From Pygmaiobacter massiliensis (GTDB lineage Bacteria; Bacillota; Clostridia; Oscillospirales; Ruminococcaceae): a stretch of 64,000 nt of DNA. The notes below the pieces were generated by a model. That model was not told the DNA's origin and searched no databases. It worked only from the letters and a program-made list of their open reading frames with translations. Where the stretch lies: contig NZ_OAML01000002.1 of NCBI RefSeq assembly GCF_900199435.1, positions 62,001 to 126,000 on the forward strand. Direction: 5' to 3'. Below, piece after piece: positions 1,042 through 18,533 of this stretch (position 1 is its first letter; the number at the start of each line of letters is the position of its first letter). The position numbers were made by a program, and so were the translations under genes.

Positions 1042-2027
1042 TGAAAGCGCCGAAACAGCGCCCGGCCCGCATGCTGGTGGTGGTTGCCCTGCTGGTTTGC
1101 ATTTTGCTCTTCGGGTTTTCGCTCTGTGTGGGGCGTTACCCGTTGCGCTTATCAGCACTTATCGCCCGCGACCCAATGACGACGCGAGTGTTCTACACAT
1201 TACGGCTGCCCCGCACGGTGCTTGCAGCCACGGTTGGGTTTGCCCTTGCAGTAGCGGGGTTTGTTTACCAACTGGTGTTCCGCAACCCGCTTGCAGCTCC
1301 TGATATTATCGGAGTTTCATCAGGTGCAGGCACTGGGGCTGCCGTAGCAATTTTGTTTTTTGGCGGGGGCGCGGTCGTGACCGCCGTTTCGGCATTTACC
1401 GGAGGTATTACGGCGGTTTTGCTTGCACTGGTGATTGCCGGTGTCGGCAAGAAAAAGCAGATAGCCACTTTTGTGTTGTCCGGCATTGCGGTAAATGCAT
1501 TAATGCAGGCGGCACTGATGGCGCTGAAGCTGACGGCAGACCCGGAAAAACAGCTGGCCTCGATTGAATTTTGGACGATGGGCAGCCTTGCAAGTAGTAC
1601 GTTGCAGAAATTGCCGTGGCCGCTGTTACTGATGGGTTGCGGTTTGGCGGGGATTTTTTTGCTTTATCGCCCGTTGCTCTTTTTAACCTTGGGCGATGAT
1701 GAAGCACGTATGATGGGTGTACCGGTGGAGCGGCTGCGTCGCGTCGTTTTGCTGCTTGCTACACTTATCGTGGCGGCGGCAGTCAGCGTCACCGGGCTCA
1801 TCACCTTTATCGGCTTAATCGCACCGCACCTTGCCAGGCTTTTAACGGGCAGCAGCAAAAAAGAAAGCTGTCTGCTTGCCGGTTTGCTGGGCAGTGCGTT
1901 GTTGCTGGCCGCAGACTGTGCAGCACGGGGCTTGCTGGGGACAGAGGTGCCAATCAGCATTTTAACATCCCTGCTTGGCGCGCCGTTTTTGGTGTGGCTG
2001 GTATGCAGAGAGGAGCGTGTGCCGTGA
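1041..2027 (+). CDS. FecCD-family ABC transporter permease
   Basis: This is the inner-membrane permease of a type II importer (BtuC/FecCD family), 328 residues. It has many hydrophobic segments and the family landmark near residue 80, FRNPLAAPDIIGVSSGAGTG. A second typical stretch, GLITFIGLIAPHLARLL, lies near residue 250 and includes the coupling region that contacts the ATPase. The frame stays open upstream, but the ATG at 1041 overlapping the preceding stop is the natural start. It overlaps the ATPase gene by a few bases, so all three transporter genes are translationally coupled. Homologous systems carry iron chelates, cobalamin, or molybdate/tungstate (MolB type). Confidence 0.9.
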   Translation: MKAPKQRPARMLVVVALLVCILLFGFSLCVGRYPLRLSALIARDPMTTRVFYTLRLPRTVLAATVGFALAVAGFVYQLVFRNPLAAPDIIGVSSGAGTGAAVAILFFGGGAVVTAVSAFTGGITAVLLALVIAGVGKKKQIATFVLSGIAVNALMQAALMALKLTADPEKQLASIEFWTMGSLASSTLQKLPWPLLLMGCGLAGIFLLYRPLLFLTLGDDEARMMGVPVERLRRVVLLLATLIVAAAVSVTGLITFIGLIAPHLARLLTGSSKKESCLLAGLLGSALLLAADCAARGLLGTEVPISILTSLLGAPFLVWLVCREERVP

Positions 2028-2797
2028 AAGAGACCTTGCTTAAAGCTCAAAACTTTTCAGTTTATCGCAAGGGAACTTGCGTGGTGCAGGACATCAGTTT
2101 TACGCTGTGCCCGGGCGAGTTCACTGCGCTGCTAGGGCTGAACGGCAGCGGTAAAAGTACGCTTCTTTCTGGAGTGTGCGGCCTTTTGCCAGCTACCGGG
2201 AGTTGCACCGTAAACGGAGAGCAGATTGCTGGGCTAAAAGAGCGGCAGCGCGCTGCAAAGCTTGCATATCTGCCACAGCGCAGCGAGATGGTGGCAGAGC
2301 TGCCGGTGCTGGATGTGGTGTTGATGGGCTTTCATGCTTCACTTCCCATTCTCGGCGCACCGGGGCAGGCACAACGCGAAACGGCAATGCAGCTTTTAGA
2401 GCGAGTCGGGATGCAAGATGCAGCCAAATGCAGCTTTTTCGCATTGAGTGAAGGGCAGAGGCAGCTGGTATTACTTGCTCGGGCGCTCGCTCAAAACACT
2501 CCGTTTTTGCTGCTGGACGAGCCGGACAGTGCACTGGATTTTAATAACCGGCACCGGATGCTGCACCTGCTAAAAGATTTGGCCCAGCAGGAGAAAAAAG
2601 CTTTGCTACTGACCATGCATGATGCCAATTTTGCACTGCATTATTGTGACCGTCTTTTACTGCTGCAAGGCGGCCGCCTTTGCGGAGACTTGCGCACAGC
2701 AGAAAATGATGGCACGCTGGAAACGGCACTGCAACAGGTTTATGGCGATGTGGAGTTAGGGCGCTGTGGTGAGCAGCGGATTTTGTTAAAAAGATAA
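2024..2797 (+). CDS. ABC transporter ATP-binding protein, FecE/MolC type
   Basis: This is the ATPase that powers the FecCD permease, 257 residues. The Walker A motif GLNGSGKST is near residue 42, the signature LSEGQRQLVLLARAL near residue 143, and the Walker B motif FLLLDEPDSALD near residue 163, with a switch histidine in LLTMHDANF. The GTG at 2024 is chosen because it overlaps the upstream TGA and has an AGAGGAG site about ten bases before it; an in-frame ATG at 2003 lacks such a site. It forms the third gene of an importer operon that continues into the ModE-like gene 13 bases downstream. Confidence 0.88.
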   Translation: MKETLLKAQNFSVYRKGTCVVQDISFTLCPGEFTALLGLNGSGKSTLLSGVCGLLPATGSCTVNGEQIAGLKERQRAAKLAYLPQRSEMVAELPVLDVVLMGFHASLPILGAPGQAQRETAMQLLERVGMQDAAKCSFFALSEGQRQLVLLARALAQNTPFLLLDEPDSALDFNNRHRMLHLLKDLAQQEKKALLLTMHDANFALHYCDRLLLLQGGRLCGDLRTAENDGTLETALQQVYGDVELGRCGEQRILLKR

Positions 2798-2810
2798 GGA
2801 GACGTGTGCG

Positions 2811-3209
2811 ATGCATCCGGTAACCCGAACTTTTCTTTGTGACGAAAACGGAGAGCGCTTTTTTGGTGCGGGCCCCTGCCGCTTGCTGCGAGGAGTGGAA
2901 CGCACCGGCTCACTTAACGCTGCGGCCACAGAAATGAAAATGGCTTATACCAAAGCGCTTGCCCTGGTGCGCGGATTAGAAAAAGCGCTGGGCACATCGG
3001 TTATCTGCCGAACCATAGGCGGAAAAGGCGGGGGAGGCTCTCGGCTAACATCTCAAGCGAAGGAGCTAATCGAGCGATATGAACAATATGAAACGGCCTG
3101 CGCCGAAGCAAACCGCGCAATTTTTGAAACGTGTTTTTGCGGCTTCGAAAAAGCGGCACCTTCTCTTGACGGGGAGCCGTCAGATTGGCAAGACAACACT
3201 GCTCGCTGA
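2811..3209 (+). CDS. ModE-like winged-helix DNA-binding protein
   Basis: This small regulator of 132 residues resembles the N-terminal domain of ModE. It has a LysR-like winged helix from about residue 15 to 90, with the conserved run GVERTGSLNAAATEMKMAYTK and the wing GGKGGGGSRLT. It lacks the TOBE/molybindin domain of full ModE, so it may not sense molybdate itself. It sits between the importer and the NTPase-MobA gene, preceded by an AAGGAG site. Stand-alone ModE-like proteins are common beside molybdenum hydroxylases. The last 20 or so residues are encoded in bases shared with the next gene in another frame and look unlike the family. Confidence 0.85.
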   Translation: MHPVTRTFLCDENGERFFGAGPCRLLRGVERTGSLNAAATEMKMAYTKALALVRGLEKALGTSVICRTIGGKGGGGSRLTSQAKELIERYEQYETACAEANRAIFETCFCGFEKAAPSLDGEPSDWQDNTAR

Positions 3210-4194
3210 GCTGATTGGTGGCGAAAAGCTGCCTGGGCTGCAAAGCAAAGCGGTTTTCAGCGGTGCTCCTCATCCCGACAAAGTGGAATTGCTGGAAACC
3301 ACAACCGGGCGCAAAACTGTCGTAGGGCACTATGAAAATGGCAGCATGCAAGTGCAGCCAGAGGGCTTTGAAGCATTTGGTGTGCAATGCATACACGCTG
3401 CCGCAACGGCACCGAGTGAGTGGGTTCAAATCGACGAGCTTGGATTTTTAGAGCGTGACTGCGCTGCTTTCGCTGATGCGGTGGAGAGGTTGTTTGAGCA
3501 AAAGCGCGTAGTTGCTGTGCTGCGCAAACAGCAAGGCATTCTGCTCAACGATGCATTGCTTGCCCGGCCAGATGTTTTTGTTTTTGACCTCGACGAGCTC
3601 ATCCCACCTGACGGTTTGCAAATTGGATGTGTGATATTAGCAGCTGGTGAGGCGCGCCGGTTTGGGGCCAACAAGCTGCTTGCAGAGTTTCAAGGCAGAC
3701 CAATGCTGGAGCAATCTTTCCTGCGGCTGCCCGCAAGGCTTTGGAGTAACACGCTGATAGTAACCCGTAACAAAGAGGTGGCAGAGTTAGCAGCAGCATA
3801 CGGCTTGCCGACCATAACGCCGGAGGGCGCGCAGCTTTCGGACAGTATTCGCTGTGCTGCAAAAAGCCTAAAAGGCTTGGATGGTGTGCTTTTTTCGGTA
3901 GGGGATCAGCCACTTTGCCGAGCGGAAAGCTTACAGCTTATCCTTCGCGATTTTGTTGCACATCCTAACGCCATCGTTCGGCTCTCTTTTGAGGATTGGC
4001 AGGGGAACCCGGTGATTTTTCCGGGAGATATGCTTTTAGAACTGGAAGAACTTACCTCCGAGCAAGGCGGCAACACAGTAATCCGGCGCCATACCGAAAG
4101 GTTGCGCAGTGTGCAAGCGTTATTTGCAGAGGAACTTGAAGATGCGGATACGCCACAAAAGCTAAACGCACTGCGTCAAATACCGAGAGAGTAA
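3079..4194 (+). CDS. P-loop NTPase / MobA-like nucleotidyltransferase fusion
   Basis: This 371-residue protein joins two enzymes. Residues 25-175 form a THEP1-like nucleoside-triphosphatase with a P-loop at about 31-41 (TGSRQIGKTTL). Residues 182-371 form an NTP_transf_3 domain like MobA/MocA, with the signature CVILAAGEARRFGANKLL and a later GDQPLCR. The second half is expected to attach CMP or GMP to molybdopterin, giving the dinucleotide cofactor of the hydroxylases downstream; this is family knowledge. The role of the NTPase half is unknown. The start at 3079 has an AAGGAG site 13 bases upstream but lies deep inside the ModE-like gene (131-base overlap). A TTG at 3124 is an alternative. 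Either start leaves a long overlap, since the P-loop is encoded there. Confidence 0.85.
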   Translation: MNNMKRPAPKQTAQFLKRVFAASKKRHLLLTGSRQIGKTTLLAELIGGEKLPGLQSKAVFSGAPHPDKVELLETTTGRKTVVGHYENGSMQVQPEGFEAFGVQCIHAAATAPSEWVQIDELGFLERDCAAFADAVERLFEQKRVVAVLRKQQGILLNDALLARPDVFVFDLDELIPPDGLQIGCVILAAGEARRFGANKLLAEFQGRPMLEQSFLRLPARLWSNTLIVTRNKEVAELAAAYGLPTITPEGAQLSDSIRCAAKSLKGLDGVLFSVGDQPLCRAESLQLILRDFVAHPNAIVRLSFEDWQGNPVIFPGDMLLELEELTSEQGGNTVIRRHTERLRSVQALFAEELEDADTPQKLNALRQIPRE

Positions 4195-4335
4195 GTTGTC
4201 GGAGAGCTGGTTTTGTTCATTTAAATGGCTGAACTTGTGGTTTTCAAACACTTTCCACGTTGGTTAAGATGAATCATTTGCAGCACAAGGCAAGGTTTTG
4301 AAACTGCACGGTTACAACATATTTTCTGATTTTAA

Positions 4336-4372
4336 AACAGACAGATGCTTTGCGGCGTCTGTCTGTTTTTTT
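4336..4372 (+). terminator. Rho-independent terminator
   Basis: A 14-bp stem (arms beginning AAACAGACAGATGC) with a six-base loop is followed by a run of T. It closes the importer/NTPase-MobA operon and separates it from the hydroxylase promoter downstream. The rest of 4195-4513 holds only this hairpin and the promoter below. Confidence 0.9.
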
Positions 4373-4405
4373 GCAATAAAGCAAGATGTGCGCGAAATTT
4401 GCAGC

Positions 4406-4435
4406 TTTACATCGTTTTCGGAAAAGTGTTATACT
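4406..4435 (+). promoter_or_regulatory. Sigma-A type promoter of the first hydroxylase operon
   Basis: TTTACA and TATACT are separated by 18 bases. The predicted start of transcription near 4442 gives a leader of about 70 bases, which includes a CTGCGC/GCGCAG stem at 4446-4477 whose role is unclear. Confidence 0.65.
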
Positions 4436-4513
4436 AAGTTGCGAATCTGCGCCGGCACACGCTTGCCCTTTGCGCAGGAACCGAAACACTACCTACCCGG
4501 AGGAGGTTGTATT

Positions 4514-5311
4514 TTGTATACGATAAAAAATTACCACTTTGCCGAAAGTGTAGACGAAGCAGCAGCGCTGCTCCAAAAAAGCCGTGCCAACACCGTGCTT
4601 GGTGGCGGCACATGGCTGCGCCTTGGCGAGCGCAATATTGCTACCGCAATCGATCTTTCCCATTTGGGCCTTGACCAGATTACCGAAACAGAAGAAGAAA
4701 TTACACTGGGAGCTATGGTATCTTTGCGCGCTTTAGAGCAAAGCACACTATTGCAAACCCAGTTTGGCGGGTTGCTTGCCCGGTGTGTACGCCATATTGT
4801 CGGCGTACAGTTTCGCGGCCTCGCCACAGTAGGCGCCAGCGTTGCAAGCCGATACGGCTTTTCGGATGTCATTACGGCGTTGCTTGCACTGGACACTGAA
4901 GTTGAGCTTTGCCCCGGTGGCCGTCTGCCGCTTGCGGCGTATTTACAGCAGCCGCCCGCAAGGCAGCTGCTGGTGGCTGTGCATATCAAAAAAGATGGTT
5001 GCACTGCGGTACATACTTCGCACCGGTTGACTGAAACAGATTTCCCGGTGCTTGCTGTGGCGGCTGCCCGCTGTAAAGACGGCAGTTTCCGCATCAGCGT
5101 AGGTGCACGACCCGCTGTGGCACAGCGCTGCCCGCAGGCAGAACAAGCTGCCGAGGCAAACGGGCCAGAAGCTGCCGGCGAAGCAGCCGCAGAAATGTTG
5201 CAGTTTGGCAGCAATACCCGCAGCAGTGCAGAATATCGCAAGGTGCTTGCAAAGGTACTGGTTACCCGCGCGCTCACAGAACTTGCAGAAAAGGAAAGCC
5301 TTGCGCGCTGA
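4514..5311 (+). CDS. Molybdenum hydroxylase FAD-binding subunit (CoxM/XdhB-like), first set
   Basis: This 265-residue flavoprotein subunit would pass electrons from the 2Fe-2S subunit to an acceptor. The first FAD contact is recognisable (VLGGGTWLRLG near residue 30). The second family motif, normally TIGGN followed by a PxxD-type stretch, reads TVGASVASRYGFSD here, so FAD binding may be altered. The TTG at 4514 is chosen because an AGGAGG site lies seven bases upstream; the open frame extends further back, but through a terminator and promoter. Genes for the 2Fe-2S and molybdopterin subunits follow directly. The substrate is unknown; a purine or related heterocycle is plausible from context. 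Confidence 0.85.
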   Translation: MYTIKNYHFAESVDEAAALLQKSRANTVLGGGTWLRLGERNIATAIDLSHLGLDQITETEEEITLGAMVSLRALEQSTLLQTQFGGLLARCVRHIVGVQFRGLATVGASVASRYGFSDVITALLALDTEVELCPGGRLPLAAYLQQPPARQLLVAVHIKKDGCTAVHTSHRLTETDFPVLAVAAARCKDGSFRISVGARPAVAQRCPQAEQAAEANGPEAAGEAAAEMLQFGSNTRSSAEYRKVLAKVLVTRALTELAEKESLAR

Positions 5312-5340
5312 TACGCGCTGGAAAGGTACGGTTTAATATC

Positions 5341-5802
5341 ATGGAACTTCATTTGACGTTGAACGGAAAACCCGTTTCAAAAACCATCGCGCCGGATGCA
5401 TCGCTGCTCAACTTTTTGCGTGAGTGTGGTTGCCACAGTGTGCGCAGTGGCTGCGATACCGGTAACTGCGGCATCTGCACAGTTTGGGTAGACGGCCAGC
5501 CGCTGCTTTCTTGCGCTTACCCGGCAGCACGCGCCGAAGGCAAAAATATCACCACGCTGGAAGGCGTAAAAGCTGAGGCTGATGAGCTGATTCGCTATAT
5601 GGCAGAAGAAGGCGCAGACCAGTGCGGTTATTGCAGTCCGGGTTTTATTATGGCGGTGCTTGGTATGAAGCGCGAACTACAAAACCCTACGGAAAAAGAG
5701 GTTAAACATTACCTCGCCGGCAACCTTTGCCGCTGCACCGGATACGCCAGCCAGACCCGTATTTTGCAAAAATATTTGGCGGAGGTGCAGAACAATGGCT
5801 GA
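5341..5802 (+). CDS. Molybdenum hydroxylase 2Fe-2S subunit (CoxS/XdhC-type), first set
   Basis: This is the small iron-sulfur subunit, 153 residues, carrying electrons from molybdopterin to FAD. All eight cluster cysteines are present. The N-terminal plant-ferredoxin-type cluster uses C38, C43, C46 and C58; the C-terminal helical cluster uses C95, C98, C130 and C132 (the CGYCSPGF and LCRCTGY motifs). Length matches the family. It begins 29 bases after the FAD subunit and overlaps the molybdopterin subunit by eight bases, giving the usual medium-small-large order of three-subunit enzymes. Confidence 0.95.
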   Translation: MELHLTLNGKPVSKTIAPDASLLNFLRECGCHSVRSGCDTGNCGICTVWVDGQPLLSCAYPAARAEGKNITTLEGVKAEADELIRYMAEEGADQCGYCSPGFIMAVLGMKRELQNPTEKEVKHYLAGNLCRCTGYASQTRILQKYLAEVQNNG

Positions 5803-8101
5803 ACAAAAACTGAAATATGTCAACCATCCTATTCCTAAAAAAGACGCCGAAGCCATTATGGGCGGTGCGCCTGTTTATACCGACGATCTGGTGCCCCCGG
5901 GGACATTGACTGTAAAATTGCTGCGCAGCCCGTATGCATCAGCGCGCATTACCGCTATTGATACCGCCGTCGCAAGTAAAGTGCCGGGTGTTGTATGCAT
6001 TCTTACACATGAGGATGTACCCAAAATCCGTTACAGCTTTGCAGGCTCTAACTATCCCGGCAATAACCCTTTTGACCGATATATTCTCGAAGATGTGGTG
6101 CGCTATGTCGGCGACCCGGTTGCAGTGATTGCAGCCGAAAATGAAGCGGCCGCAATCCGCGCGATGAAATTGGTGAAAGTCACCTACGAGCAGCTTCCTC
6201 CGGTGCTGGACTTTGAAACTGCTGAAGGCAATGCCTCTGTGGTGCATGACGAAGACGATTATTTTTATCAGATGGACATTGGCGGTGACATCAAAAAGAA
6301 CCTGCTCTCCAGCGAGGGCTTTGAGCATGGTGACTTTGATGCGGTTTTTGCTGCCTGCCCGGTACAGCTGGACGAAACTTATTACACCAAGCAAAACCAG
6401 CAGGCAATGATGGAAACCTTCCGCGCATTTAGCTATGTCGATTACAGCGGTAGCCTTACGGTGGTCAGCAGCACGCAGATTCCGTTCCATGCACGCCGCA
6501 TTATTGCGCGCGCACTCGGCTTGCCGCCCGCAAAGGTGCGCGTAATCAAACCGCGCATTGGCGGCGGCTTTGGCGCAAAGCAGTCACTCGTTTGCGAATT
6601 ATTCCCGGCACTGGTTACCCGCAAAACAGGCAGACCTGCCAAAATTGTTTTTACCCGGCATGAATCTTTTTCGGCCAGCAATAGCCGTCACGAATTCCGC
6701 GTGGGGGTGCGTCTTGGCGCAGAAAAAGACGGCACAGTAAAAGCGCTTTGGGTAGATAGCCTTGAAAATGCAGGCGCTTATGGCGAGCATGCCGTCAACG
6801 TTATCGGGCTGTCGGCACATAAAACGCTGCCGCTTTACGGCAAAGCTTCAGCAAACCGCTATACCGGTCGTGTGGTTTACACCAATACCATGGCGGGCGG
6901 GGCTTTCCGTGGATTTGGTGCTACGCAAGGGTGTTATGCAGTAGAAACTACTGTAAATAAAATGGCGCGTCAGCTTGGGCTTGACCCCGCAGCAGTGCGG
7001 CTTGCCAATTTACCCACAGTAGGGGAGCCGATGCCGGCTTACTATAACGAAACCCTGAACAGCTGTTCGCTGGACCGCTGTATCGCAACCGGCAAAAAAA
7101 TGATTGGCTGGGATGAAAAATACGTGCCCGGCAGCTTTGGCCGAAAAACCGGCCCCCACACCTACCGCGGTATGGGTATGGCAATTACCATGCAGGGCTC
7201 TGGTCTTACCAACCTGGATGCTTGTTCGGTAACTCTGCGGCTGGATGATGACGATTATTACACGCTGATGATCGGCGCATCCGATATGGGCACTGGTTGC
7301 GATACCATCTTGGCGCAGATGGCAGCCGAAATTTTGTGTTGCCCTGTCGAAAACATTACGGTAGACGGTGTTGATACCAATCACTCGCCTTATGATAAAG
7401 GCTCTTATGCTTCTTCCACCACCTACGTTACAGGCAATGCAGTGGTAAAAGCGGCAACCCAGCTGGTCGAAAGAATGCGTGATGTCGCGGCGCAAAAGCT
7501 AAATGTGCCTGCAACAACACTTTGCTTTGATGGCACTACCTTCACTGATGGAGAGAAAAGCCTGACGGTAAAAGAAATCGGCATCGAAAGCGTCAACGGC
7601 CAAAACGACTGGCTTACTGTAACCGCAAGCTTCAGCGGTAAAGCATCTCCGCCGCCGTTTGTGGCAGGCTTTGCTGAAGTTGAGGTGGATACCGAAACAG
7701 GAAAAGTGACCTTACTGGATATGGTTGGCGTAGTAGACTGCGGCACCGTGGTAAATAAAAGCCTTGCCCGCGTTCAGGCAGAAGGCGGCCTTGCACAAGG
7801 CGTTGGTATGGCCCTTTATGAAGATGTGCGTTATAGCACTGCCGGTCAGTTGCGCACCGATAGCTTTATGGATTACAAAATTCCCAGTCGGCTTGATCTG
7901 CCGAATATTCGCGTTGCTTTTGAAGAAAGCTACGAACCCAGCGGCCCGTTTGGCGCCAAAAGCATCGGCGAAGTGGTCATCAATACCCCGACTCCCGCTA
8001 TCGTAGAAGCCATTCGCAACGCTGTCGGCGTAGAAATTCACTCACTGCCTGCAACAGCAGAAAAAGTGTACATGGCCTTACAAAACTCAAAAATGGCTTA
8101 G
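5795..8101 (+). CDS. Molybdenum hydroxylase large (molybdopterin-binding) subunit, first set
   Basis: This 768-residue catalytic subunit belongs to the xanthine dehydrogenase / CO dehydrogenase / aldehyde oxidoreductase family. An N-terminal hammerhead domain spans roughly residues 15-125. The molybdopterin-binding part contains the glycine-rich loop GGGFGAKQ near residue 254 and GGAFRGFGA near 367. The catalytic glutamate of the family is E726 in GAKSIGEVV. It starts inside the end of the 2Fe-2S gene, so translation is coupled. Substrate specificity cannot be assigned from sequence. Position beside a purine-riboswitch operon favours a purine or purine-like substrate, which is inference. Confidence 0.92.
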   Translation: MAEQKLKYVNHPIPKKDAEAIMGGAPVYTDDLVPPGTLTVKLLRSPYASARITAIDTAVASKVPGVVCILTHEDVPKIRYSFAGSNYPGNNPFDRYILEDVVRYVGDPVAVIAAENEAAAIRAMKLVKVTYEQLPPVLDFETAEGNASVVHDEDDYFYQMDIGGDIKKNLLSSEGFEHGDFDAVFAACPVQLDETYYTKQNQQAMMETFRAFSYVDYSGSLTVVSSTQIPFHARRIIARALGLPPAKVRVIKPRIGGGFGAKQSLVCELFPALVTRKTGRPAKIVFTRHESFSASNSRHEFRVGVRLGAEKDGTVKALWVDSLENAGAYGEHAVNVIGLSAHKTLPLYGKASANRYTGRVVYTNTMAGGAFRGFGATQGCYAVETTVNKMARQLGLDPAAVRLANLPTVGEPMPAYYNETLNSCSLDRCIATGKKMIGWDEKYVPGSFGRKTGPHTYRGMGMAITMQGSGLTNLDACSVTLRLDDDDYYTLMIGASDMGTGCDTILAQMAAEILCCPVENITVDGVDTNHSPYDKGSYASSTTYVTGNAVVKAATQLVERMRDVAAQKLNVPATTLCFDGTTFTDGEKSLTVKEIGIESVNGQNDWLTVTASFSGKASPPPFVAGFAEVEVDTETGKVTLLDMVGVVDCGTVVNKSLARVQAEGGLAQGVGMALYEDVRYSTAGQLRTDSFMDYKIPSRLDLPNIRVAFEESYEPSGPFGAKSIGEVVINTPTPAIVEAIRNAVGVEIHSLPATAEKVYMALQNSKMA

Positions 8102-8195
8102 TTTTGGGCAATTTTGGCAGATAGGTGATAGCGAACTAGTAAACATAACACAAAAACATCACAAATTTGCTACAAAGTTTAGCAAAAAATTGGGG

Positions 8196-8225
8196 TTTCC
8201 AAATCTTTTTGCAATATGCTATACT
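8196..8225 (+). promoter_or_regulatory. Probable promoter upstream of the purine riboswitch
   Basis: A good -10 (TATACT, 8220-8225) has a weak -35 (TTTCCA) 18 bases upstream. Transcription from here would produce a leader of about 230 bases containing the riboswitch and terminator. The first hydroxylase gene has no clear terminator, so read-through is also possible. Confidence 0.5.
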
Positions 8226-8314
8226 TTTATGCGTTGGGCAAAAGCCGCAAGCCTTTGCTCCAATGCAACTATGGCCTGCAATCGCGCGGTGCCTAAATGA
8301 ATAATAAAGCACGA

Positions 8315-8379
8315 TTCGTATATTTTTGAGGATTGGCTCAAACGTTTCTACCTCCCTGCCGGAACGGGGAGACTACGAG
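8315..8379 (+). ncRNA. Purine riboswitch aptamer, guanine class, with shortened loops
   Basis: Three helices around the conserved purine core are visible. P1 pairs 8315-8320 with 8374-8379. P2 pairs 8325-8330 with 8337-8342 and is capped by GATTGG. The J2/3 core GTTTCTACC lies at 8344-8352. P3 pairs 8353-8358 with 8365-8370 and is capped by CCGGAA, followed by J3/1 GACTACG. The specificity base corresponding to position 74 is C (8373), as in guanine/hypoxanthine aptamers; adenine aptamers have T. The GG of loop 2 and the CC of loop 3 needed for the kissing contact are kept, but each loop appears one base shorter than the common form. The aptamer precedes the second hydroxylase-transporter operon. 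Confidence 0.85.
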
Positions 8380-8421
8380 GAAGTGATTTCACAGCCGGGC
8401 AGCTTTGCGCGGTGTGATTTT

Positions 8422-8454
8422 GCCGTCCTCTTTTGAGGGCGGCTTTATTTTTTT
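8422..8454 (+). terminator. Terminator in the riboswitch expression platform
   Basis: A 9-bp stem (GCCGTCCTC with GAGGGCGGC) around a TTTT loop is followed by an 11-base T-rich tract, ending just before the ribosome site of the next gene. GAGGA at 8377-8381, in the 3' strand of P1, could instead pair with TCCTC at 8426-8430. That fits an OFF switch in which ligand binding frees the terminator, but the competing helix is only five base pairs. Confidence 0.85.
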
Positions 8455-8469
8455 GCCGGAGGTGATTTT

Positions 8470-10557
8470 TTGGATAGATTGACAGGCACTGGGGTGCGCC
8501 GGTTGGATGCGCCGGATAAAGCCCGCGGAATTGCGAAGTACGCAGCGGATTATACCGCACCTAACATGCTGCACCTTGCGCTGGTACGGGCAGAAGTTGC
8601 CCATGCAGATCTGCTCGAGGTGGATGCTTCCGCACTTCCGAAAGATGCATTTTGCTTTACGGCAAAAGATTTGGCAAGCAATTTGCTGCCTTCGATTATG
8701 AACGACCAGCCCGTTTTTGCAGAAGACAAAATTCGTTTTTGGGGCGAGCCGGTTGCAGTAGTTGCGGCAGCCACACCGCAAAAAGCGAGAGAGGCTGCGG
8801 CATCGGTCAAGCTGCGATGGAACCCGCTGCCGGTGGTTTGCGGAGCAAAAGAGGCTTTGCAAAAAGAGGCTGCAACAGTACAAAAAGCTGGCAATGTATG
8901 TTCCGAATTTCACTGCGTGAAAGGTCAGCCTCAGCATGCGTTTGATGAATGCGAGCTTGTTTTGGAAGATGAATTTTTTCTGCCAACACAGGAGCATGGC
9001 TATTTAGAACCCGAAGCAGCGTTCTGCCAAAAAGATGAAAAAGGCCGGCTTTGCCTTGTTGCTTCTACCCAAAATGCATTCGCAGACCGCGAGATGATTT
9101 GCCATGTTCTTGACCTGCCGCAAGAGAAAGTCGCCTGTAAGGCGGCAGTAGTAGGCGGAGGGTTTGGCGGCAAAGACGGAAACACCGCACAGATTTTCCC
9201 CGCGATTGTTACATACTTTACCGGTCGTCCCAGCAAGCTGGTTTTTACGCGAACCGAAAGTATTCGAACCAGCTATAAACGTCATAGTGCTACCGTTCAC
9301 GTCAAGATGGGCTTTACAAAAGAGGGCATTATTCACGCATTTGAAGGGGAGATGTGGCTGGATACCGGCGCGTATGCAGCACTCGGGCCGGCGGTTTTAT
9401 CGCTTGGTACCGAGCATCTGCCGGGCCCCTACCGTATCGAGCATGTAAAAGTGGACGGTTGGCTGGCTTATACCAACAATACACCAGCGTCGGCAATGCG
9501 TGGTTTTGGTGCCCCGCAGGGTGCAATGGCAACAGAGTGCCTGATTAGCCAAGCGGCAGTAAAGCTTGGCATTGACCAGGTTGAAATTCGCCGCAAAAAT
9601 GCGTTGCGCAAAGGCGATACCGGTGCATTGGGGCAGTTGATGGAACACTCTGTTGGCTTGCAAGAAGCGCTTGACCAGTTTGAACGCTCTGACTTTTACA
9701 AGGAGATGCGGACAAACAGCGACCCCGGAATCGGCTACGGCATTGCCGCAGGCATGATGAGCAGCGGTATGGGCAGGGGAATCCCCGACCACGCCACAGT
9801 GACGATTGAAAAAACAAGTACCGGATACCTCGTGCGGGTCGGCGTAGTCGACATTGGACAGGGAAGCGAAACTGCACTTGCCATGTTGGCCGCCGAGGCA
9901 CTGGAGGTACCGATTTCAGCGATTGAAATGCGGATGGCCAATACAGATGAAACCATCGACAGCGGCTCTACTGCTGCCAGTCGCAGTGTTTATATCTGCG
10001 GTAACGCACTGCTTGCAGCGGCAGAAAAAATAAAAGCAGGCGCAAACAGCGCTACCGAGCAAGCGGTTTTTCCAGAAAACAAAACCGATGTAGGTATGCC
10101 GGGATTGCCCCATACCCTTTACGGTTTCATCGTGCAGGGCGCAAAAGTGAGATTGGACAACGCCACTGGTGCAGTTACTGTGTTGCGCGTACATAACACC
10201 ACCGAAGCAGGCCGCATCCTGAATCCTGTCTCTATGGCAGGGCAGATTTTTGGCGGCATTGCAATGTCGACCGGATACACTCTTTCAGAAGAAATTCGCT
10301 GGCGCGAAGGCCGCTCTCTCGAAGATAGCTTTGCAAGCTATGTCATGCCGACAGCGCTGGATGTGCCGCAGATGACAAGCGATAACATTGATGCTTACGA
10401 GCCGACCGGTCCCGCCGGAGCCAAAGGCGTGGCCGAGGCTTCTACCGTGGCGCTTGCCCCGGCAATTGCTGCAGCGGTAGAAAATCTGCTGCCCCAAACG
10501 CGGCTAACCGAGCTGCCGCTTCGGCGCGAGAAAATTCTTGCAGCGACAAAAAAATAA
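8470..10557 (+). CDS. Molybdenum hydroxylase large subunit, second set (xanthine-dehydrogenase-like)
   Basis: This 695-residue molybdopterin-binding subunit is about 70 residues shorter than its neighbour at 5795-8101. It has the hammerhead domain at the N-terminus (MDRLTGTGVRRLDAPDKARG), the loop GGGFGGKDG near residue 229, AMRGFGAPQG near 343, and the family catalytic glutamate at E656 in GAKGVAEAS. The TTG start at 8470 follows a strong GGAGGTGA site. It is the first gene after the purine riboswitch, and its likely FAD and 2Fe-2S partners lie 5 kb downstream beyond a transporter. A purine hydroxylase is the best guess; the partners could also be shared between the two large subunits. Confidence 0.9.
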   Translation: MDRLTGTGVRRLDAPDKARGIAKYAADYTAPNMLHLALVRAEVAHADLLEVDASALPKDAFCFTAKDLASNLLPSIMNDQPVFAEDKIRFWGEPVAVVAAATPQKAREAAASVKLRWNPLPVVCGAKEALQKEAATVQKAGNVCSEFHCVKGQPQHAFDECELVLEDEFFLPTQEHGYLEPEAAFCQKDEKGRLCLVASTQNAFADREMICHVLDLPQEKVACKAAVVGGGFGGKDGNTAQIFPAIVTYFTGRPSKLVFTRTESIRTSYKRHSATVHVKMGFTKEGIIHAFEGEMWLDTGAYAALGPAVLSLGTEHLPGPYRIEHVKVDGWLAYTNNTPASAMRGFGAPQGAMATECLISQAAVKLGIDQVEIRRKNALRKGDTGALGQLMEHSVGLQEALDQFERSDFYKEMRTNSDPGIGYGIAAGMMSSGMGRGIPDHATVTIEKTSTGYLVRVGVVDIGQGSETALAMLAAEALEVPISAIEMRMANTDETIDSGSTAASRSVYICGNALLAAAEKIKAGANSATEQAVFPENKTDVGMPGLPHTLYGFIVQGAKVRLDNATGAVTVLRVHNTTEAGRILNPVSMAGQIFGGIAMSTGYTLSEEIRWREGRSLEDSFASYVMPTALDVPQMTSDNIDAYEPTGPAGAKGVAEASTVALAPAIAAAVENLLPQTRLTELPLRREKILAATKK

Positions 10558-10636
10558 ACCTTGGCACTTGCCGCATCTGCGGTTTTGCGATAGCCGGCGG
10601 CATAAGCCGGACGCACCGATTTTAGGAGGAAACAAG

Positions 10637-11671
10637 ATGAAAAAGATTCTTGCACTTACCATGGCTATGGCACTTAGCCTTACCCTGTTCGCAGGCTGCG
10701 GCAGCAAAGCTCCCGCTTCCAGCGCAGCAGCTTCCGGTTCCGGCGCTGCAAATGGCGAAAAAACCGAGCCCCTCAAGATTGCGCTTATCCTGCCCGGCGC
10801 CAAAGACGACGTCAGCTTTAATCAGGCAATGTACGAAGGCATGACCGAGATTGAAGCCGAGTACGGCGATGCTGTCGAAGTCAGCTATGTCGAAAACGTA
10901 TATGACGTTGCAGACATCACCCCGACTGTCATCGACTTTGCTGAAGAAGGCTATGATTTGGTCTTCGGCCACGGCTTCCAGTTCATGGAGCCCATCATGG
11001 AGCTTGCAGACCAGTACCCCGACACCGTCTTTTTGACCGGTACCGGCTATCTGACCTCTGACAATGCTGGCTATTACAATACCCACCTTGCATCCGGTGG
11101 CTATGTGATGGGCGTTATTGCAGCGACCATCAGCGAGACCGGCAAAATCGGTGTCATCGGCGGCAGCAACGTGGCAGAAATCTATCAGGGCCACGAAGGC
11201 TTTAAAGCAGGCGCAAAAAGCGTAAACCCCGACATCGCCATTGAAGAAGTTTACACCGGCGACTTTAATGACACCCCGCTTGCCAAAACCACTGCCGACG
11301 GCATGTATGATGCAGGTGTAGATGTTATCTGGCACTCCGGCGACGGCATCGGCCTCGGCGTTGTACAGTCGGCGAAAGAAAAAGGCAAGTACTGCCTGAC
11401 CAACGCAGCCGATCAGTCCAGCCTGGCACCGGAAAGCGTTGTCAGCGGCGTAGTGTACGACTGGAAACTGGCGATTCGCGAAGCAATTGAAGATGTAAAG
11501 GCTGGCACCTTTGCAACTGGCGAAAAGGCTTACTGGTGCACAGTAGAGAACGGCGGCATTAACATTGCCCCGTATCTGGAAGGCGCAATGACGGAAGAGC
11601 AGACCGCAACCGTCAATAAAGTGGTCGAGGACATTCGTTCCGGCGCGCTTGAAATTCCCGAGTATAAATAA
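10637..11671 (+). CDS. BMP-family nucleoside/purine-binding lipoprotein
   Basis: This is the substrate-binding protein of a BMP (PnrA/Med-like) ABC importer, 344 residues. A signal peptide ends in the lipobox LFAGC, then a Ser/Ala-rich linker precedes the binding domain, which begins LKIALILPGAKDDVSFNQAMYEG near residue 40. Family members bind nucleosides, autoinducer-like compounds or purines. The ATG at 10637 follows AGGAGG; the open frame upstream carries no signal peptide. Its place between a purine-regulated hydroxylase subunit and the transporter ATPase argues for a purine base or nucleoside as ligand. Confidence 0.9.
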   Translation: MKKILALTMAMALSLTLFAGCGSKAPASSAAASGSGAANGEKTEPLKIALILPGAKDDVSFNQAMYEGMTEIEAEYGDAVEVSYVENVYDVADITPTVIDFAEEGYDLVFGHGFQFMEPIMELADQYPDTVFLTGTGYLTSDNAGYYNTHLASGGYVMGVIAATISETGKIGVIGGSNVAEIYQGHEGFKAGAKSVNPDIAIEEVYTGDFNDTPLAKTTADGMYDAGVDVIWHSGDGIGLGVVQSAKEKGKYCLTNAADQSSLAPESVVSGVVYDWKLAIREAIEDVKAGTFATGEKAYWCTVENGGINIAPYLEGAMTEEQTATVNKVVEDIRSGALEIPEYK

Positions 11672-11700
11672 GCCTTTATCGGCTGAAACGAAAGCGGAAT

Positions 11701-11734
11701 ACCCCGAAGCGCAGGGCAACCTGGGCTTCGGGGT
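11701..11734 (+). other. Stem-loop between binding-protein and ATPase genes
   Basis: A perfect 10-bp stem (ACCCCGAAGC with GCTTCGGGGT) lies 30 bases after the binding-protein stop. No T tract follows, so it is more likely a transcript-stabilising or pausing hairpin than a terminator. Such elements often allow more binding protein than membrane components. Confidence 0.6.
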
Positions 11735-11792
11735 AGCTCGTTGTTAAGTGCAGGAAAAACAACCATACCAAACAAAGGCGGGGGAGATACTT

Positions 11793-13352
11793 TTGGAATA
11801 CGCAGTTGAATTGCGAGGCATAACCAAACGGTTTGGAAGCAATGTTGCAAACAAACAAGTAGATTTAAAAATCAGATCAGGATCGATTCATGGCCTGCTC
11901 GGCGAGAACGGCGCAGGTAAATCCACCCTGATGAATGTGCTTTACGGCCTTTATAAACCGGAAGAGGGCGAAATCTACCTGCGGGGAGAGCGTCACGTTA
12001 TCGATTCTCCGCTCAAAGCAATGGAACTGGGCATCGGTATGGTGCACCAGCACTTTATGCTGGCACGCCCGTTGACCGTGGCAGAAAATATCATGGTAGG
12101 CACAAAGTCAAAGCGTGGCCCGCTGCTGGATACCCGCCGCGTCATGCGCGAAATTCAGGAAGTGAGCGATCGCTATCATCTTGATGTAGACCCCGCTATT
12201 AAAATTGAAGCACTTTCGGTAGGTCAGCAGCAGCGCGTAGAAATTTTGTCTGCCATCTATCAAGGTGCTGATATTTTGATTCTGGACGAGCCCACTGCCG
12301 TGCTGACACCGCAGGAAGTACAGGAGCTGTTTGTGATTCTGCGCAAAATGCGGGAGGACGGCAAGTCGGTTATTCTCATTACTCATAAGCTCGACGAAAT
12401 CATGGAAATCGTAGATGAAATTAGTGTGCTGCGTGACGGCGAGTATGTCGGCAGCCGTGTAATGGGCCCCGATGTTACCAAAGACGAGTTGACCCAAATG
12501 ATGGTGGGCCGCGAAGTGCTGTTTGACTTTAGCGATGCGGGCACATTGACAGAGCCCGGCAAAGTGAAGGTAGCTTTACGCGATGTGCACGCAAAAAATA
12601 CCTGCGGGGTAGAAGCGCTGCGCGGCATTTCGCTCGAACTTCATGAAGGAGAGATTTTGGGACTCGCGGGGGTCGACGGCAATGGCCAGAAAGAGCTGGC
12701 AGAAGTATTAACTGGCCTGGCTAAGGTGAGTGAAGGCGAAATGCTTTACAACGAAAAACCGATTCAAAATCGCCGGCCGATTGATTATATCAACGATAAA
12801 ATTGCCCATGTACCGGAAGATCGCCAGACGACCGGCATTGCAATGAATTTTTCCATCAAAAACAACCTCATTATAAAAAATCATGGTGCAAAACGTTTTA
12901 AAAAGGGCCCGGTAATTAACTATGACGTGGTAAACGCTTATGCTGAAGAGCTGATGGAGCAATACCACGTAAAGGCAACTGGCCGCAATGAAATTATCAA
13001 AAATCTTTCGGGCGGCAATCAGCAAAAAATTGTGCTGGCTCGTGAGCTTGCTGATGAACCGGAATTTTTGATTGCAAGTCACCCGACCCGTGGCTTGGAC
13101 ATTGGCGCGAGCGAATATGTTCGCGGACAGATTCTTGCCCAGCGCAACAAAGGCGTAGCAGTTTTATTAATTTCAGCAGATTTGGAAGAAATTTTACAGC
13201 TTTCTGACCGCATTGCGGTAATTTATGATGGGCGCATTACCGGCATTTTGCCGCGCGGCGCTTCTGCAGAAGAAATTGGCTACTTGATGCTTGATAACCA
13301 AAAGAAGGAGGCGCCCCATGGCAACCAAGAAAAAGAAAAATCTCGCGTATAA
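11793..13352 (+). CDS. BMP-type ABC transporter ATPase with two nucleotide-binding domains
   Basis: This 519-residue duplicated ATPase resembles YufO/NupO and RbsA. The first domain has Walker A GENGAGKST near residue 37, signature LSVGQQQRVEIL near 142 and Walker B ILILDEPTAVL. The second domain has GVDGNGQKEL, signature LSGGNQQKIVLAREL near 407, and ASHPTRGLD in place of the standard Walker B DEP, as often seen in sugar/nucleoside systems. The TTG at 11793 follows a GGGGGAG site, while an upstream GTG in frame has none. The end overlaps the first permease by 35 bases. Confidence 0.92.
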   Translation: MEYAVELRGITKRFGSNVANKQVDLKIRSGSIHGLLGENGAGKSTLMNVLYGLYKPEEGEIYLRGERHVIDSPLKAMELGIGMVHQHFMLARPLTVAENIMVGTKSKRGPLLDTRRVMREIQEVSDRYHLDVDPAIKIEALSVGQQQRVEILSAIYQGADILILDEPTAVLTPQEVQELFVILRKMREDGKSVILITHKLDEIMEIVDEISVLRDGEYVGSRVMGPDVTKDELTQMMVGREVLFDFSDAGTLTEPGKVKVALRDVHAKNTCGVEALRGISLELHEGEILGLAGVDGNGQKELAEVLTGLAKVSEGEMLYNEKPIQNRRPIDYINDKIAHVPEDRQTTGIAMNFSIKNNLIIKNHGAKRFKKGPVINYDVVNAYAEELMEQYHVKATGRNEIIKNLSGGNQQKIVLARELADEPEFLIASHPTRGLDIGASEYVRGQILAQRNKGVAVLLISADLEEILQLSDRIAVIYDGRITGILPRGASAEEIGYLMLDNQKKEAPHGNQEKEKSRV

Positions 13353-14454
13353 GTTAGACAAGGGCCTCTCCCGTTTGCTGCCTGCCCTTGGCACCATCGC
13401 ACTGGCTTTGCTGGTGGGCGGCATTATCATTGCCATCTCGGGCAATAACCCGCTGGAAGCATATGCACAGATGTTCAAGGGTGCATTCGGCTCGAAAAGC
13501 CGCATCAGCGAAACGCTTGTTAAAACAGTACCTCTGATGCTGCTTGCACTCGGTGTTTCTGTGGCATTCCGCAGCCAGATTTGGAATATCGGTGCAGACG
13601 GTCAGTTTACTATTGGCGCCATTTTCGCAATCTGCGTTACCCTTTATCTGCCGGGCGAAAACATTTTTATTCTGCTGCTTTCGTTTGTAGCCGCTTTTGT
13701 TGGCGGTGCACTTTGGGGTGGACTTTCCGGCTTTTTAAAAGCAAAGTTTAACGCCAACGAGGTTATTACTACGCTGATGCTGAACTATGTAGCGCAGTAT
13801 CTGCTTGCATACCTCATTCGCGGCCCGCTCATGGACCCCAACGGCGGCAACAATCCTCAGTCTGCGTCTATCCCGGAAGCTTACCGCCTACCGCGCTTTG
13901 TTTCCAACCTGCGCGTCAACTATGGCATTTTTATTGGTCTGGCGGTGCTTATTTTCATTTATTATTTCTGGCGCAGTGCTTACGGGTATAAGCTCAAGCT
14001 GGTCGGCGCCAGCAACACGGTGGCAAAATACGCTGGGCTTAAAGTTTCCGGCATTGTGCTTTTTACCATGGTGCTTTCCGGCGGTATTGCCGGTATCGCG
14101 GGCTGGACCGAAGTTTTTGGCGCCCAGTACCGCTTGCTCGACAACATCTCATCCGGCTATGGCAATCTTGCCATTGTTGTGGCATTGCTCGGCAACCTGC
14201 GCCCCATCGATATCGGCATTGCCTCGTTCTTCTTTGCAGCGCTGATGTCTGGCGGCAACGCTATGCAGCGCATGACCGAGGTGCCTTACTCGGTGGTGGA
14301 TATCATTCAGGGTCTCATTATCGTCTTTGTTATCTGCCGCACAGTAGGGCAGAGCAACGGCTGGAAACAATGGATTGCCGCGCGCCGCAATGCGCGTAAA
14401 GCGGTTACAGCTGGCGCGGCCGAAGAGGACGGCGGAGAGGAGGACAACGGATGA
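13318..14454 (+). CDS. BMP-type ABC transporter permease 1
   Basis: This 378-residue membrane protein belongs to the BPD_transp_2 family (YufP-like). A basic N-terminus (MATKKKKN) is followed by about ten hydrophobic segments. Family stretches include FRSQIWNIGADGQFTIGAI near residue 90 and NANEVITTLMLNYVAQYL near 145. The ATG at 13318 lies after AAGGAGG, inside the end of the ATPase gene. It forms the membrane channel with the permease whose start overlaps its stop (ATGA). The hydrophilic tail is rich in Glu and Asp. Confidence 0.92.
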   Translation: MATKKKKNLAYKLDKGLSRLLPALGTIALALLVGGIIIAISGNNPLEAYAQMFKGAFGSKSRISETLVKTVPLMLLALGVSVAFRSQIWNIGADGQFTIGAIFAICVTLYLPGENIFILLLSFVAAFVGGALWGGLSGFLKAKFNANEVITTLMLNYVAQYLLAYLIRGPLMDPNGGNNPQSASIPEAYRLPRFVSNLRVNYGIFIGLAVLIFIYYFWRSAYGYKLKLVGASNTVAKYAGLKVSGIVLFTMVLSGGIAGIAGWTEVFGAQYRLLDNISSGYGNLAIVVALLGNLRPIDIGIASFFFAALMSGGNAMQRMTEVPYSVVDIIQGLIIVFVICRTVGQSNGWKQWIAARRNARKAVTAGAAEEDGGEEDNG

Positions 14455-15395
14455 TTCAGCAAATTTTTACCACAACTTTTTTTGCAAGCGTGCTTGGCTC
14501 TGCCATTCGTCTTGCCACCCCAATTCTCGCCACTTCTTTGGGCGAAATTTATACCCAACGTTCCGGTGTTATGAACCTTGGCCTAGAGGGGACCATGCTG
14601 ATGGGAGCACTTGCCGGTTTCCTTGGCTGCTATTTTAGCGGAAGCCTTGCACTGGGGGTGCTTTGTGGCATGGCAGCGGGTGTTCTGATGAGCACCGTTA
14701 TGGCTTTCCTCAGCGTAACAATGAAAGCGAATCAGGTCATTGCAGGCACCGCACTTACTATTTTGGGCAGCGGTCTTGCAGCATTCATCTATCGCTCTGT
14801 GTTTGGCCTGCAAAAATCTCCGCCGCAGGTAGAGAACTTCCGCGCGCTGCCGATTCCCGGCTTGTCCAAAATTCCATTTTTCGGGGACGTGCTGTTCAAT
14901 CATAATCTTTTGGTTTATATTATCTTCGCACTGGTGCCCATCACATGGTTTGTGCTTGAAAAAACCGTGCTTGGCCTGCGTATTAAAATGGTAGGCGAAC
15001 ATCCGCGCGCGGCAGATTCGAAAGGCATTTCGGTAGCCGGTGTGCGTTACACTGCGGTGATGATTGGCGGCGCTTATGCCGGACTTGCCGGCGCTTACCT
15101 TACCATTGCCTACATGAACAGCTTTACCGATAATATTGTTTCGGGTCGTGGATACATTGCCCTTGCAGTTGTTATCTTTTCTCACTGGAAGCCCAGCCTT
15201 GCCATGTGGGGCTCGCTATTGTTTGGTTTTGCAAATGCATTGCAGATTCGTTTGCAGGCACTCGGCGCGCCGATTCCAAACCAGTTCTTGCTGATGCTGC
15301 CTTACGTCATCACTATCGTAGTGCTGGTAGGTGTATCTAAAAAAGCAGAATTTCCGTCGGCTTACACACAACCCTATTCAAGGATGGAACGATGA
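14451..15395 (+). CDS. BMP-type ABC transporter permease 2
   Basis: This 314-residue YufQ-like partner permease carries the family stretch RSGVMNLGLEGTMLMGALAG near residue 38 and KANQVIAGTALTILGSGLA near 90. Its start overlaps the first permease stop. The two permeases, the duplicated ATPase and the BMP lipoprotein make a complete importer. Its stop overlaps the start of the next small gene, so that gene is also part of the operon. Confidence 0.92.
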   Translation: MIQQIFTTTFFASVLGSAIRLATPILATSLGEIYTQRSGVMNLGLEGTMLMGALAGFLGCYFSGSLALGVLCGMAAGVLMSTVMAFLSVTMKANQVIAGTALTILGSGLAAFIYRSVFGLQKSPPQVENFRALPIPGLSKIPFFGDVLFNHNLLVYIIFALVPITWFVLEKTVLGLRIKMVGEHPRAADSKGISVAGVRYTAVMIGGAYAGLAGAYLTIAYMNSFTDNIVSGRGYIALAVVIFSHWKPSLAMWGSLLFGFANALQIRLQALGAPIPNQFLLMLPYVITIVVLVGVSKKAEFPSAYTQPYSRMER

Positions 15396-15856
15396 GCAAA
15401 CGAAAAAAATGGAGCATCGCTTTTGCAGTGGTAGCTTTACTGGTTGCAGTGCTTGCAGGCTTTTTGCTTACCCACCCGGCACTTTCGCCAAAGGGTGAAC
15501 CATACGCCGAAAAGCGTGTGCTGGCAATGGCAAAAGCGGCAAACGAAAATGACCCCGCAAAAGTATACGATTTTTTGACCAAAGAGCTGCGGGATATCTG
15601 CAGCAAAGAAGAGTTTTGTAAAAACTGGGAAGATGAGCGAACCTATCCTTATTTGATTCCGTTTTGGATCTTTTTCCGGGGAATAGAGATGGAACAGGGG
15701 AATGAACAGGGCAGTGCTAAATTTGAGCGTGCAGCCCGGTTGCCCGGCCAGTTTGAAGAGTACGGCATTGTCTACGAAAACGGCGGATATTATATCGATG
15801 CATTCCGCACGATTGCAGACGGCAGCTATGTCGAAATCTTCGAGCGCCTGTCATAA
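15392..15856 (+). CDS. Membrane-anchored protein of unknown function in the purine operon
   Basis: I do not recognise this 154-residue protein. One N-terminal transmembrane segment (about residues 8-27, after MSKRKKW) is followed by a soluble domain outside the membrane. That domain contains NDPAKVYDFLTKELRDICSK and a compact alpha-beta pattern reminiscent of small NTF2-like or DUF4878-type lipoprotein domains; this is only a resemblance. It overlaps the preceding permease by four bases and is followed 66 bases later by the FAD subunit, so it is firmly inside the riboswitch-controlled operon. An accessory role in the transporter or hydroxylase is possible. Confidence 0.75.
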   Translation: MSKRKKWSIAFAVVALLVAVLAGFLLTHPALSPKGEPYAEKRVLAMAKAANENDPAKVYDFLTKELRDICSKEEFCKNWEDERTYPYLIPFWIFFRGIEMEQGNEQGSAKFERAARLPGQFEEYGIVYENGGYYIDAFRTIADGSYVEIFERLS

Positions 15857-15922
15857 CATTTTACGGCGTTGCCCCAGACGCAGCAAAAGCCTACCCAAAC
15901 ACCGAAAGGAAAGTTCTGAGCT

Positions 15923-16774: not shown

Positions 16775-16775
16775 T

Positions 16776-17252: not shown

Positions 17253-17280
17253 TCTGAAAAAGCAATCTTAATTTAAAACA

Positions 17281-17320
17281 AAAAGCCCCTGCCTAGCAAT
17301 GCGCCAGAGCAGGGGCTTTT
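17281..17320 (+). terminator. Bidirectional terminator
   Basis: AAAAGCCCCTGC pairs with GCAGGGGCTTTT across a 16-base loop. T-rich runs flank the hairpin on both strands, so it can end the purine operon and the convergent radical SAM gene. Confidence 0.9.
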
Positions 17321-17468
17321 ATTATATAGAACAGGATGCGGCTTCTCCGAAAACAAGCTGTTGTTTAGCATGATTTTTTCAATACAGCGAAAAGGCGGTG
17401 GCCCCCAAGGAAGCTTTAAGCCTTGCCAATGATAAGGCAAAGTAAGAGCATTATATTAAAGCAAAAGT

Positions 17469-18383: not shown

Positions 18384-18533
18384 CTACTTCCGGTTTTGTT
18401 CCTAAACCGCCCATTGGCACATTGCAGAAAATGCCGCATACCAGAGCGGTTTTTACAAGAATTATACCACAGGAATGGGCTTTTGTGATATACTTAAACT
18501 AATATGAAATGATAAGATACAAAGAATGATGAG

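Follow-up and report, generated by a model that had tools for sequence, protein, structure and literature searches.

Guanine riboswitches commonly reduce the expression of genes for biosynthesis, salvage or uptake, and genes for xanthine dehydrogenase, allantoinase and dioxygenase are not commonly associated with them according to the excerpted text of PMC9295807, which assigns such genes to the guanine-riboswitch variant xanthine-II. The xanthine-II RNAs have the scaffold in common with the window (the whole 64-kb stretch of DNA analyzed here) and xanthine dehydrogenase among their targets, but carry G51 and insertions in J2/3 and J3/1, whereas the window has U51, no insertions and a predicted OFF rather than ON output. 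The xanthine-I or NMT1 riboswitch controls purine-oxidation genes, as the title of PMC7373994 states, which is like the window, although the excerpts of PMC9295807 describe an architecture entirely different from the guanine riboswitch scaffold; xanthine-I/NMT1 has no Rfam match in the 64-kb window. The window riboswitch is a genuine guanine-I-type member of the known class with uncommon but recurrent target genes. It is closely related to the C74 members of RF00167 in its three-helix junction, its pocket bases, the GG/CC contact between loops L2 and L3 and a P1 helix shared with the terminator decision, and differs from them in having six bases rather than seven in both loops and in its target, a molybdenum (Mo) hydroxylase and importer operon. 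A search of the open-access literature at the level of titles and abstract openings returned no other description of a guanine-riboswitch Mo-hydroxylase regulon or of six-base loops, which is not proof of absence; the target regulon is considered modestly novel, and the riboswitch class is known.

The aptamer and its six-base loops

A first-pass annotation had named a guanine-class purine riboswitch with C at the specificity position and two six-base loops keeping the GG/CC contact, and had proposed a covariance-model search as a check. That search gives RF00167 (Purine) as the sole Rfam match above the gathering score in the 64-kb window, scoring 64.6 bits where the gathering score is 37, with an E value of 5.5e-9 and one deletion per loop relative to the model. 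The Rfam alignment (GACUACG) places C74 at 8373 and defines the loops as GAUUGG and CCGGAA, confirming the class, the specificity base and the loop lengths (Table 1). The core pattern TATA-GTTTCTACC-GACTA with limited gaps occurs once in the window and in none of 100 shuffles, and a purpose-built covariance model, with the window's riboswitch site in its training set, found this site alone in positions 1-20000 with filters off and E values up to 10. All three helices covary across 36 aligned sequences, the window among them: 88.5% of cells pair and 20 of the 22 pairs are changed on both sides, with a covariation score of 0.797 compared with 0.108-0.201 when the partner strand is slid, and the folding z-score for 8310-8458 is -4.28.

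The pocket bases U22, U51 and C74, whose roles are set out in the excerpts of PMC9295807, are all kept with no junction insertions. J1/2 is UAU compared with a consensus UAA, J3/1 is AC, and J2/3 (GUUUCUAC; DNA GTTTCTAC) has the consensus length. Adenine riboswitches have U at position 74, and the C at 8373 excludes that class; xanthine-II is excluded by U51 and the uninterrupted junctions, and guanine-II by a J2/3 of consensus length lacking the one-base insertion. Excerpts of PMC3764141 give this position as Y74.

Table 1. Features of the riboswitch leader and the operon in the window
Feature	Position	Strand	Basis
Possible promoter TTTCCA-18-TATACT, extended -10 TG	8196-8225	+	Consensus scan, 1 found vs 0.6 expected, weak
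Purine riboswitch aptamer, Rfam envelope	8296-8395	+	RF00167, 64.6 bits
P1 5' strand, partner 8374-8379	8315-8320	+	Rfam alignment, prefix folding
P2	8325-8330 with 8337-8342	+	Rfam alignment, loop assignment
Loop L2 GAUUGG (DNA GATTGG), six bases, caps P2	8331-8336	+	
J2/3 GUUUCUAC (DNA GTTTCTAC), contains pocket U51	8344-8351	+	Sequence and Rfam alignment
P3	8352-8358 with 8365-8371	+	Rfam alignment, loop assignment
Loop L3 CCGGAA, six bases, caps P3	8359-8364	+	
Specificity base C74, guanine class	8373	+	Rfam alignment GACUACG
GAGGA, overlaps P1 3' strand; predicted antiterminator 5' half	8377-8381	+	Prefix folding
Hairpin between aptamer and terminator	8389-8417	+	Folding
Intrinsic terminator stem-loop, 9 pairs	8422-8443	+	Terminator scan, folding
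UCCUC in terminator 5' arm; predicted antiterminator 3' half	8426-8430	+	Prefix folding
Terminator U-tract	8444-8454	+	Sequence, terminator scan
Shine-Dalgarno GGAGGTGA of controlled gene	8458-8465	+	Read from sequence
Mo hydroxylase Mo subunit, 695 aa, TTG start, first controlled gene	8470-10557	+	Pfam Ald_Xan_dh_C, MoCoBD_1, MoCoBD_2
BMP-family (PnrA-like) substrate-binding lipoprotein; true start probably near 10637	10538-11671	+	Pfam Bmp
ABC transporter ATPase	11748-13352	+	ORF, named by eye; 55-60% identical in three relatives' operons
ABC permease	13291-14454	+	ORF, named by eye; conserved in three operons
ABC permease	14451-15395	+	ORF, named by eye; conserved in three operons
Conserved 154-aa protein	15392-15856	+	38-46% identical partners beside permeases in G408, G447, G524
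Hydroxylase FAD subunit	15923-16774	+	NCBIfam XdhB-like, below cut-off
Hydroxylase 2Fe-2S subunit	16752-17252	+	NCBIfam XdhC-like, below cut-off

The L2-L3 contact, GG (37, 38) with CC (60, 61), is present as judged by sequence only. Excerpts of PMC3764141 and PMC5480868 describe it as two base quadruples, 33-66-38-60 and 34-65-37-61, and all eight positions can be filled in the window (A33, U34, G37, G38, C60, C61, A65 and A66); L2 lacks one base from 35-36 and L3 one from 62-64. Work cited in the excerpts of PMC5480868 found that mutations outside the quadruples were without significant effect on binding. The loss of one base per loop looks structurally mild.

A length of seven bases is not defining for RF00167, since among 194 unique aptamers from loci L001-L182 assigned with a covariance model 12 have L2/L3 loops of 6/6 and 132 of 7/7 (10 are 6/7, 10 are 7/6 and 30 other), in a set that is not a random draw, L001-L033 being mostly a family's best-scoring Rfam matches and L034-L182 having come from a pattern search that required a canonical core and limited the loop lengths, and with a model that was itself trained on sequences enriched in short loops. 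The 6/6 aptamers span seven lineage labels, which rules out loop shortening as a rare novelty. A pattern survey, likewise no random sample, of 233 unique sequences among the matches listed and other loci, with one plain chance match (G649) excluded, assigned 216 and left 17 unassigned, giving 14 with 6/6, 5 with 6/7, 7 with 7/6, 157 with 7/7 and 33 other. The wider set of 214 aptamers contains 19 with 6/6 loops and is biased, L213-L232 and L234-L252 having been chosen partly for short matches or loops, so the L001-L182 and pattern counts are used instead. Short L2 and short L3 co-occur with an odds ratio of 16 (p = 4e-7, raw, 194 unique aptamers), and with an odds ratio of 6.5 (p = 0.0036; counts 7, 9, 9 and 75) when collapsed so that each combination of lineage label and loop class counts once, L033 and all loci before it sharing one label and L114-L152 each being counted as a separate lineage. 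Strict coupling is ruled out by the 6/7 and 7/6 aptamers, the correlation being strong in the raw counts and moderate after the collapse; in these counts double loop shortening is recurrent and partly coupled between the loops. The correlated loss of one base per kissing loop suggests where the loops can do without a base. Four riboswitches, L004:1501-1600 (of the same genome as the window, before a BMP lipoprotein gene), L052, L151 and L146, appear to combine a long L2 and a short L3 (8/6, 8/5, 9/4), as though the one offset the other; this assignment is uncertain.

Expression platform and controlled operon

The predicted arrangement of P1, antiterminator and terminator follows the usual architecture of guanine OFF switches. 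The terminator stem-loop (8422-8443) is directly followed by TTTATTTTTTT, and a terminator scan of 8100-8600 identifies two terminator-like sites compared with 0.7 expected from shuffles. When the growing transcript is folded, no structure beats the P1 fold by more than 0.7 kcal/mol up to 8426. The antiterminator then gains the advantage over the P1 fold, by 5.1, 6.2 and 3.1 kcal/mol for transcripts ending at 8430, 8434 and 8438, before P1 becomes the most stable again at 8442; from 8446 to 8458 the combination of P1 and terminator is favored over the antiterminator by 6.3 to 11 kcal/mol. The predicted antiterminator is short, with just five plus four pairs. Folded to the U-tract, the window has equal energy and the same terminator whether it is free or has the aptamer forced. 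Because the terminator is the more stable at equilibrium whether or not ligand is bound, a switch would need to act kinetically, possibly with leakage.

The output sign, left open by the first-pass annotation, is now predicted to be OFF because the P1 3' strand (8377-8381) can pair with the terminator 5' arm (8426-8430). Without ligand, GAGGA of the P1 strand would pair with UCCUC of the terminator arm once the transcript reaches approximately 8430-8438, and with the antiterminator formed transcription would go on. Binding of guanine or, more weakly, hypoxanthine or xanthine would lock P1, the terminator would form, and transcription would stop near 8450. The favored reading, held to be likely, is a guanine-I-type transcriptional OFF switch for an operon of a purine-type Mo hydroxylase and a BMP/ABC importer, the latter probably for nucleosides; the riboswitch would probably turn off purine import and purine oxidation when guanine is plentiful. 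The competing helix and its energies are computed; we infer the ligand, the direction of control and the part that the operon plays in taking up and hydroxylating purines.

The gene context named in the first-pass annotation, an Mo hydroxylase followed by a BMP transporter, is upheld by Pfam and NCBIfam. The Mo subunit is below every NCBIfam cut-off, with pucD, 4-hydroxybenzoyl-CoA reductase and selenium-dependent xanthine dehydrogenase as the best models, and its best PDB relative is nicotinate dehydrogenase (3hrd_A), so the term purine hydroxylase is taken from context. The 154-amino acid protein has no NCBIfam or Pfam match. A search at E values up to 1e-100 found no match to the Mo subunit in the other 296 of the 297 family genomes, and the closest relatives among 398 genomes of the phylum are 53, 50, 49 and 48% identical, in genomes G408, G447, G524 and G382. 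The order of Mo subunit, BMP lipoprotein, ATPase, two permeases and small protein is kept in the first three, and two of these have a purine riboswitch upstream. In G447 and G524 the riboswitch is followed by an adenine deaminase gene (TIGR01178, above cut-off in both) and then by the Mo subunit, BMP and ABC genes, with the 2Fe-2S and FAD genes of G447 placed 5' of the riboswitch. Prefix folding of these two leaders gave no clear antiterminator, and the free folds of G524 are mostly without P1. G408 has a GntR-family regulator and G382 an ORF that resembles one by eye, with no NCBIfam match at E 1e-25; no purine riboswitch scores above the gathering level in 18 kb of each.

Predicted wiring of related leaders and alternative readings

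Guanine-type riboswitches precede Mo-hydroxylase genes in several families. Of 171 aptamers whose flanks were long enough, 10 have such genes within 1.5 kb downstream, namely L109 (Desulfosporosinus), L116, L171-L174 (family f24), L182 (f44), L005 (f1), L169 (f57) and the window, and in L224 (genome G219, f1) they are farther downstream, past another gene. The window and 12 other leaders were folded to the U-tract freely and with the aptamer forced, the energies excluding ligand and loop contacts. Four leaders (the window, L005, L234 and L235) form the same terminator with or without the aptamer, as expected for OFF wiring, at forcing costs of 0, 0, 2.9 and 6.4 kcal/mol; the terminator of L169 is likewise unchanged but lacks a convincing U-tract. 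L109, L224 and L182 have the terminator 5' arm within P3 and L3, and here the cost of imposing the aptamer is 20.6, 21.7 and 18.1 kcal/mol. The cost is 5.5-16 kcal/mol in L242, L245, L244 and L116 and 2.7 kcal/mol in L243, with energy gaps distorted in L244, L116 and L224 by a P3 recognized with only 3 or 4 pairs and with a hairpin of 5-6 pairs persisting at the U-tract of L242, L245 and L243 when the aptamer is forced. By folding, L109, L224 and L182 look like clear cases of ON wiring and the other five like weaker ones.

A swap control, in which downstream regions were exchanged between riboswitches (180 swaps), sets the 95 and 99% levels for an aptamer-overlapping terminator at 19.8 and 23.0. 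The higher level is exceeded by 15 of 209 leaders, including L109 and L027 (the L224 site), several of which (e.g. L058 and L145) are probably chance. L235, read as OFF, is also among the 15 (25.6), with a higher score for its own local terminator (31.6). Between the two levels are L182 (22.4), L174 (22.8, the L243 site) and L116, L172 and L173 (20.0 each), and L171 (15.4) is below both.

These leaders bear on whether the same aptamer might instead be an ON switch in the window, with the ligand freeing the Shine-Dalgarno sequence or blocking a fold that competes with the aptamer, so that guanine would induce purine oxidation. This is thought unlikely. Other Mo-hydroxylase leaders with guanine-type aptamers do have terminators that exclude the aptamer, at 18-22 kcal/mol in the three clear cases with weaker costs elsewhere, and ACCUCC of J2/3-P3 in the window can pair with the Shine-Dalgarno sequence, which would argue for ON. 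However, the window terminator coexists with the aptamer at zero energy cost, its aptamer-overlapping terminator score (16.8) is below the 95% swap-control level, and the six Shine-Dalgarno pairs when forced give a structure 2.5 kcal/mol worse than the aptamer fold, on which basis sequestration as the main mechanism is rejected.

The gene context, being like that of xanthine-II in the excerpts of PMC9295807, would also suit xanthine, urate or another oxidized purine as the ligand, as for the xanthine-II variants before xanthine dehydrogenase genes, but the substitution U51G and the J2/3 and J3/1 insertions of that variant are all absent from the window, making such a ligand highly improbable. 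A further reading treats the short loops as a functional subclass with affinity or folding kinetics changed to suit purine-oxidation operons, in line with the proposal of the first-pass annotation that loop shortening could alter affinity or folding speed. A short L2 is indeed commoner before Mo-hydroxylase genes (7 of 22 compared with 3 of 149, p = 2e-5, with no correction for relatedness), but f24 or f24-like loci account for five of these seven cases, so the association is weak. The absent bases lie outside the published quadruples, and 6/6 loops also occur before the ordinary purine genes xpt (L040, L114) and purC-like (L001) and before a BMP gene (L237), so the proposal finds no support and the subclass is judged improbable. 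The guanine-responsive OFF switch is the reading retained for the window.

The most interesting result, which concerns leaders beyond the window and is predicted by folding, would be that related operons stand behind leaders wired in opposite senses, some OFF and some ON. A division into OFF operons with an importer and ON operons without one is ruled out, as the ON-wired L253 and L257 also have BMP/ABC genes. The ON-wired G219 has as its first gene a guanine deaminase-like gene (348.7 bits, just under the TIGR02967 cut-off of 375.4), a 5'-deoxyadenosine deaminase is encoded in the ON-wired operons of G372 and G483 (NF005557, above cut-off) and an SsnA-type aminohydrolase in the one of G394 (TIGR03314, above cut-off), whereas the OFF-wired G447 and G524 have adenine deaminase instead. 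This suggests that the control sign follows what the operon does with purines, in a small number of cases grouped after the fact. A tentative extension, more doubtful than not, is that guanine-I riboswitches govern widespread and so far unlisted anaerobic Mo-hydroxylase purine operons with a sign that follows the chemistry, OFF with adenine deaminase or no deaminase (window, G447, G524, G114) and ON with guanine deaminase, 5'-deoxyadenosine deaminase or SsnA-type amidohydrolases in operons that presumably burn purines (G219, G372, f24). The aptamer would be constant and only the terminator rewired, its 5' arm being placed outside the aptamer or inside J2/3-P3-L3. If true, the OFF and ON lineages would offer a natural set of cases where a single sensor drives opposite outputs, and guanine sensing would be tied to anaerobic purine breakdown.

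Neighboring genes and further riboswitches

Several minor observations concern the other loci. In Desulfosporosinus (L109, 5567-7866, reverse strand) and G372 a break near residue 420 divides the Mo subunit, and in G483 an in-frame TAG is found at approximately that residue (L258:333-2630 and L254:1664-3921 for the two numbered genomes), an arrangement that recalls the large and medium subunits of nicotinate dehydrogenase. At L239:4095-4278 a borderline guanidine-I match (64.0 compared with 63 bits) overlaps the end of the purine riboswitch match on the same strand. The permease-like ORFs of L241 and L222 are named by eye and have no NCBIfam match at E 1e-25. The C74 riboswitches L082, L229, L230, L232 and L102 have ON-like aptamer-overlapping terminators and precede ORFs that by eye resemble FAD-dependent oxidoreductases, those of L082 and L229 having no NCBIfam match at E 1e-25.

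The genome of the window contains a second purine riboswitch with 6/6 loops (L001:1501-1600), which has a divergent core (GTATCTACG and TACTATG) with C74 kept and lies before the purC-like gene (106 bits, below the TIGR00081 cut-off of 189.9). Adenine switches are ruled out for the genome's other riboswitches, three reading GAC or TAC in the alignment, which corresponds to C74. Directly upstream of the riboswitch in the window is a second FAD/2Fe-2S/Mo hydroxylase set (4298-8101, Mo subunit 5795-8101), preceded by genes for a ModE-like DNA-binding protein and a fusion of an NTPase with a MocA-like nucleotidyltransferase (2811-4194). No second, degenerate riboswitch was detected at this set with the covariance model at E values up to 10. 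Relatives of its Mo subunit in G114 (61% identical) and G382 (54% identical) have a guanine-type riboswitch in the leader (L255 and L256).
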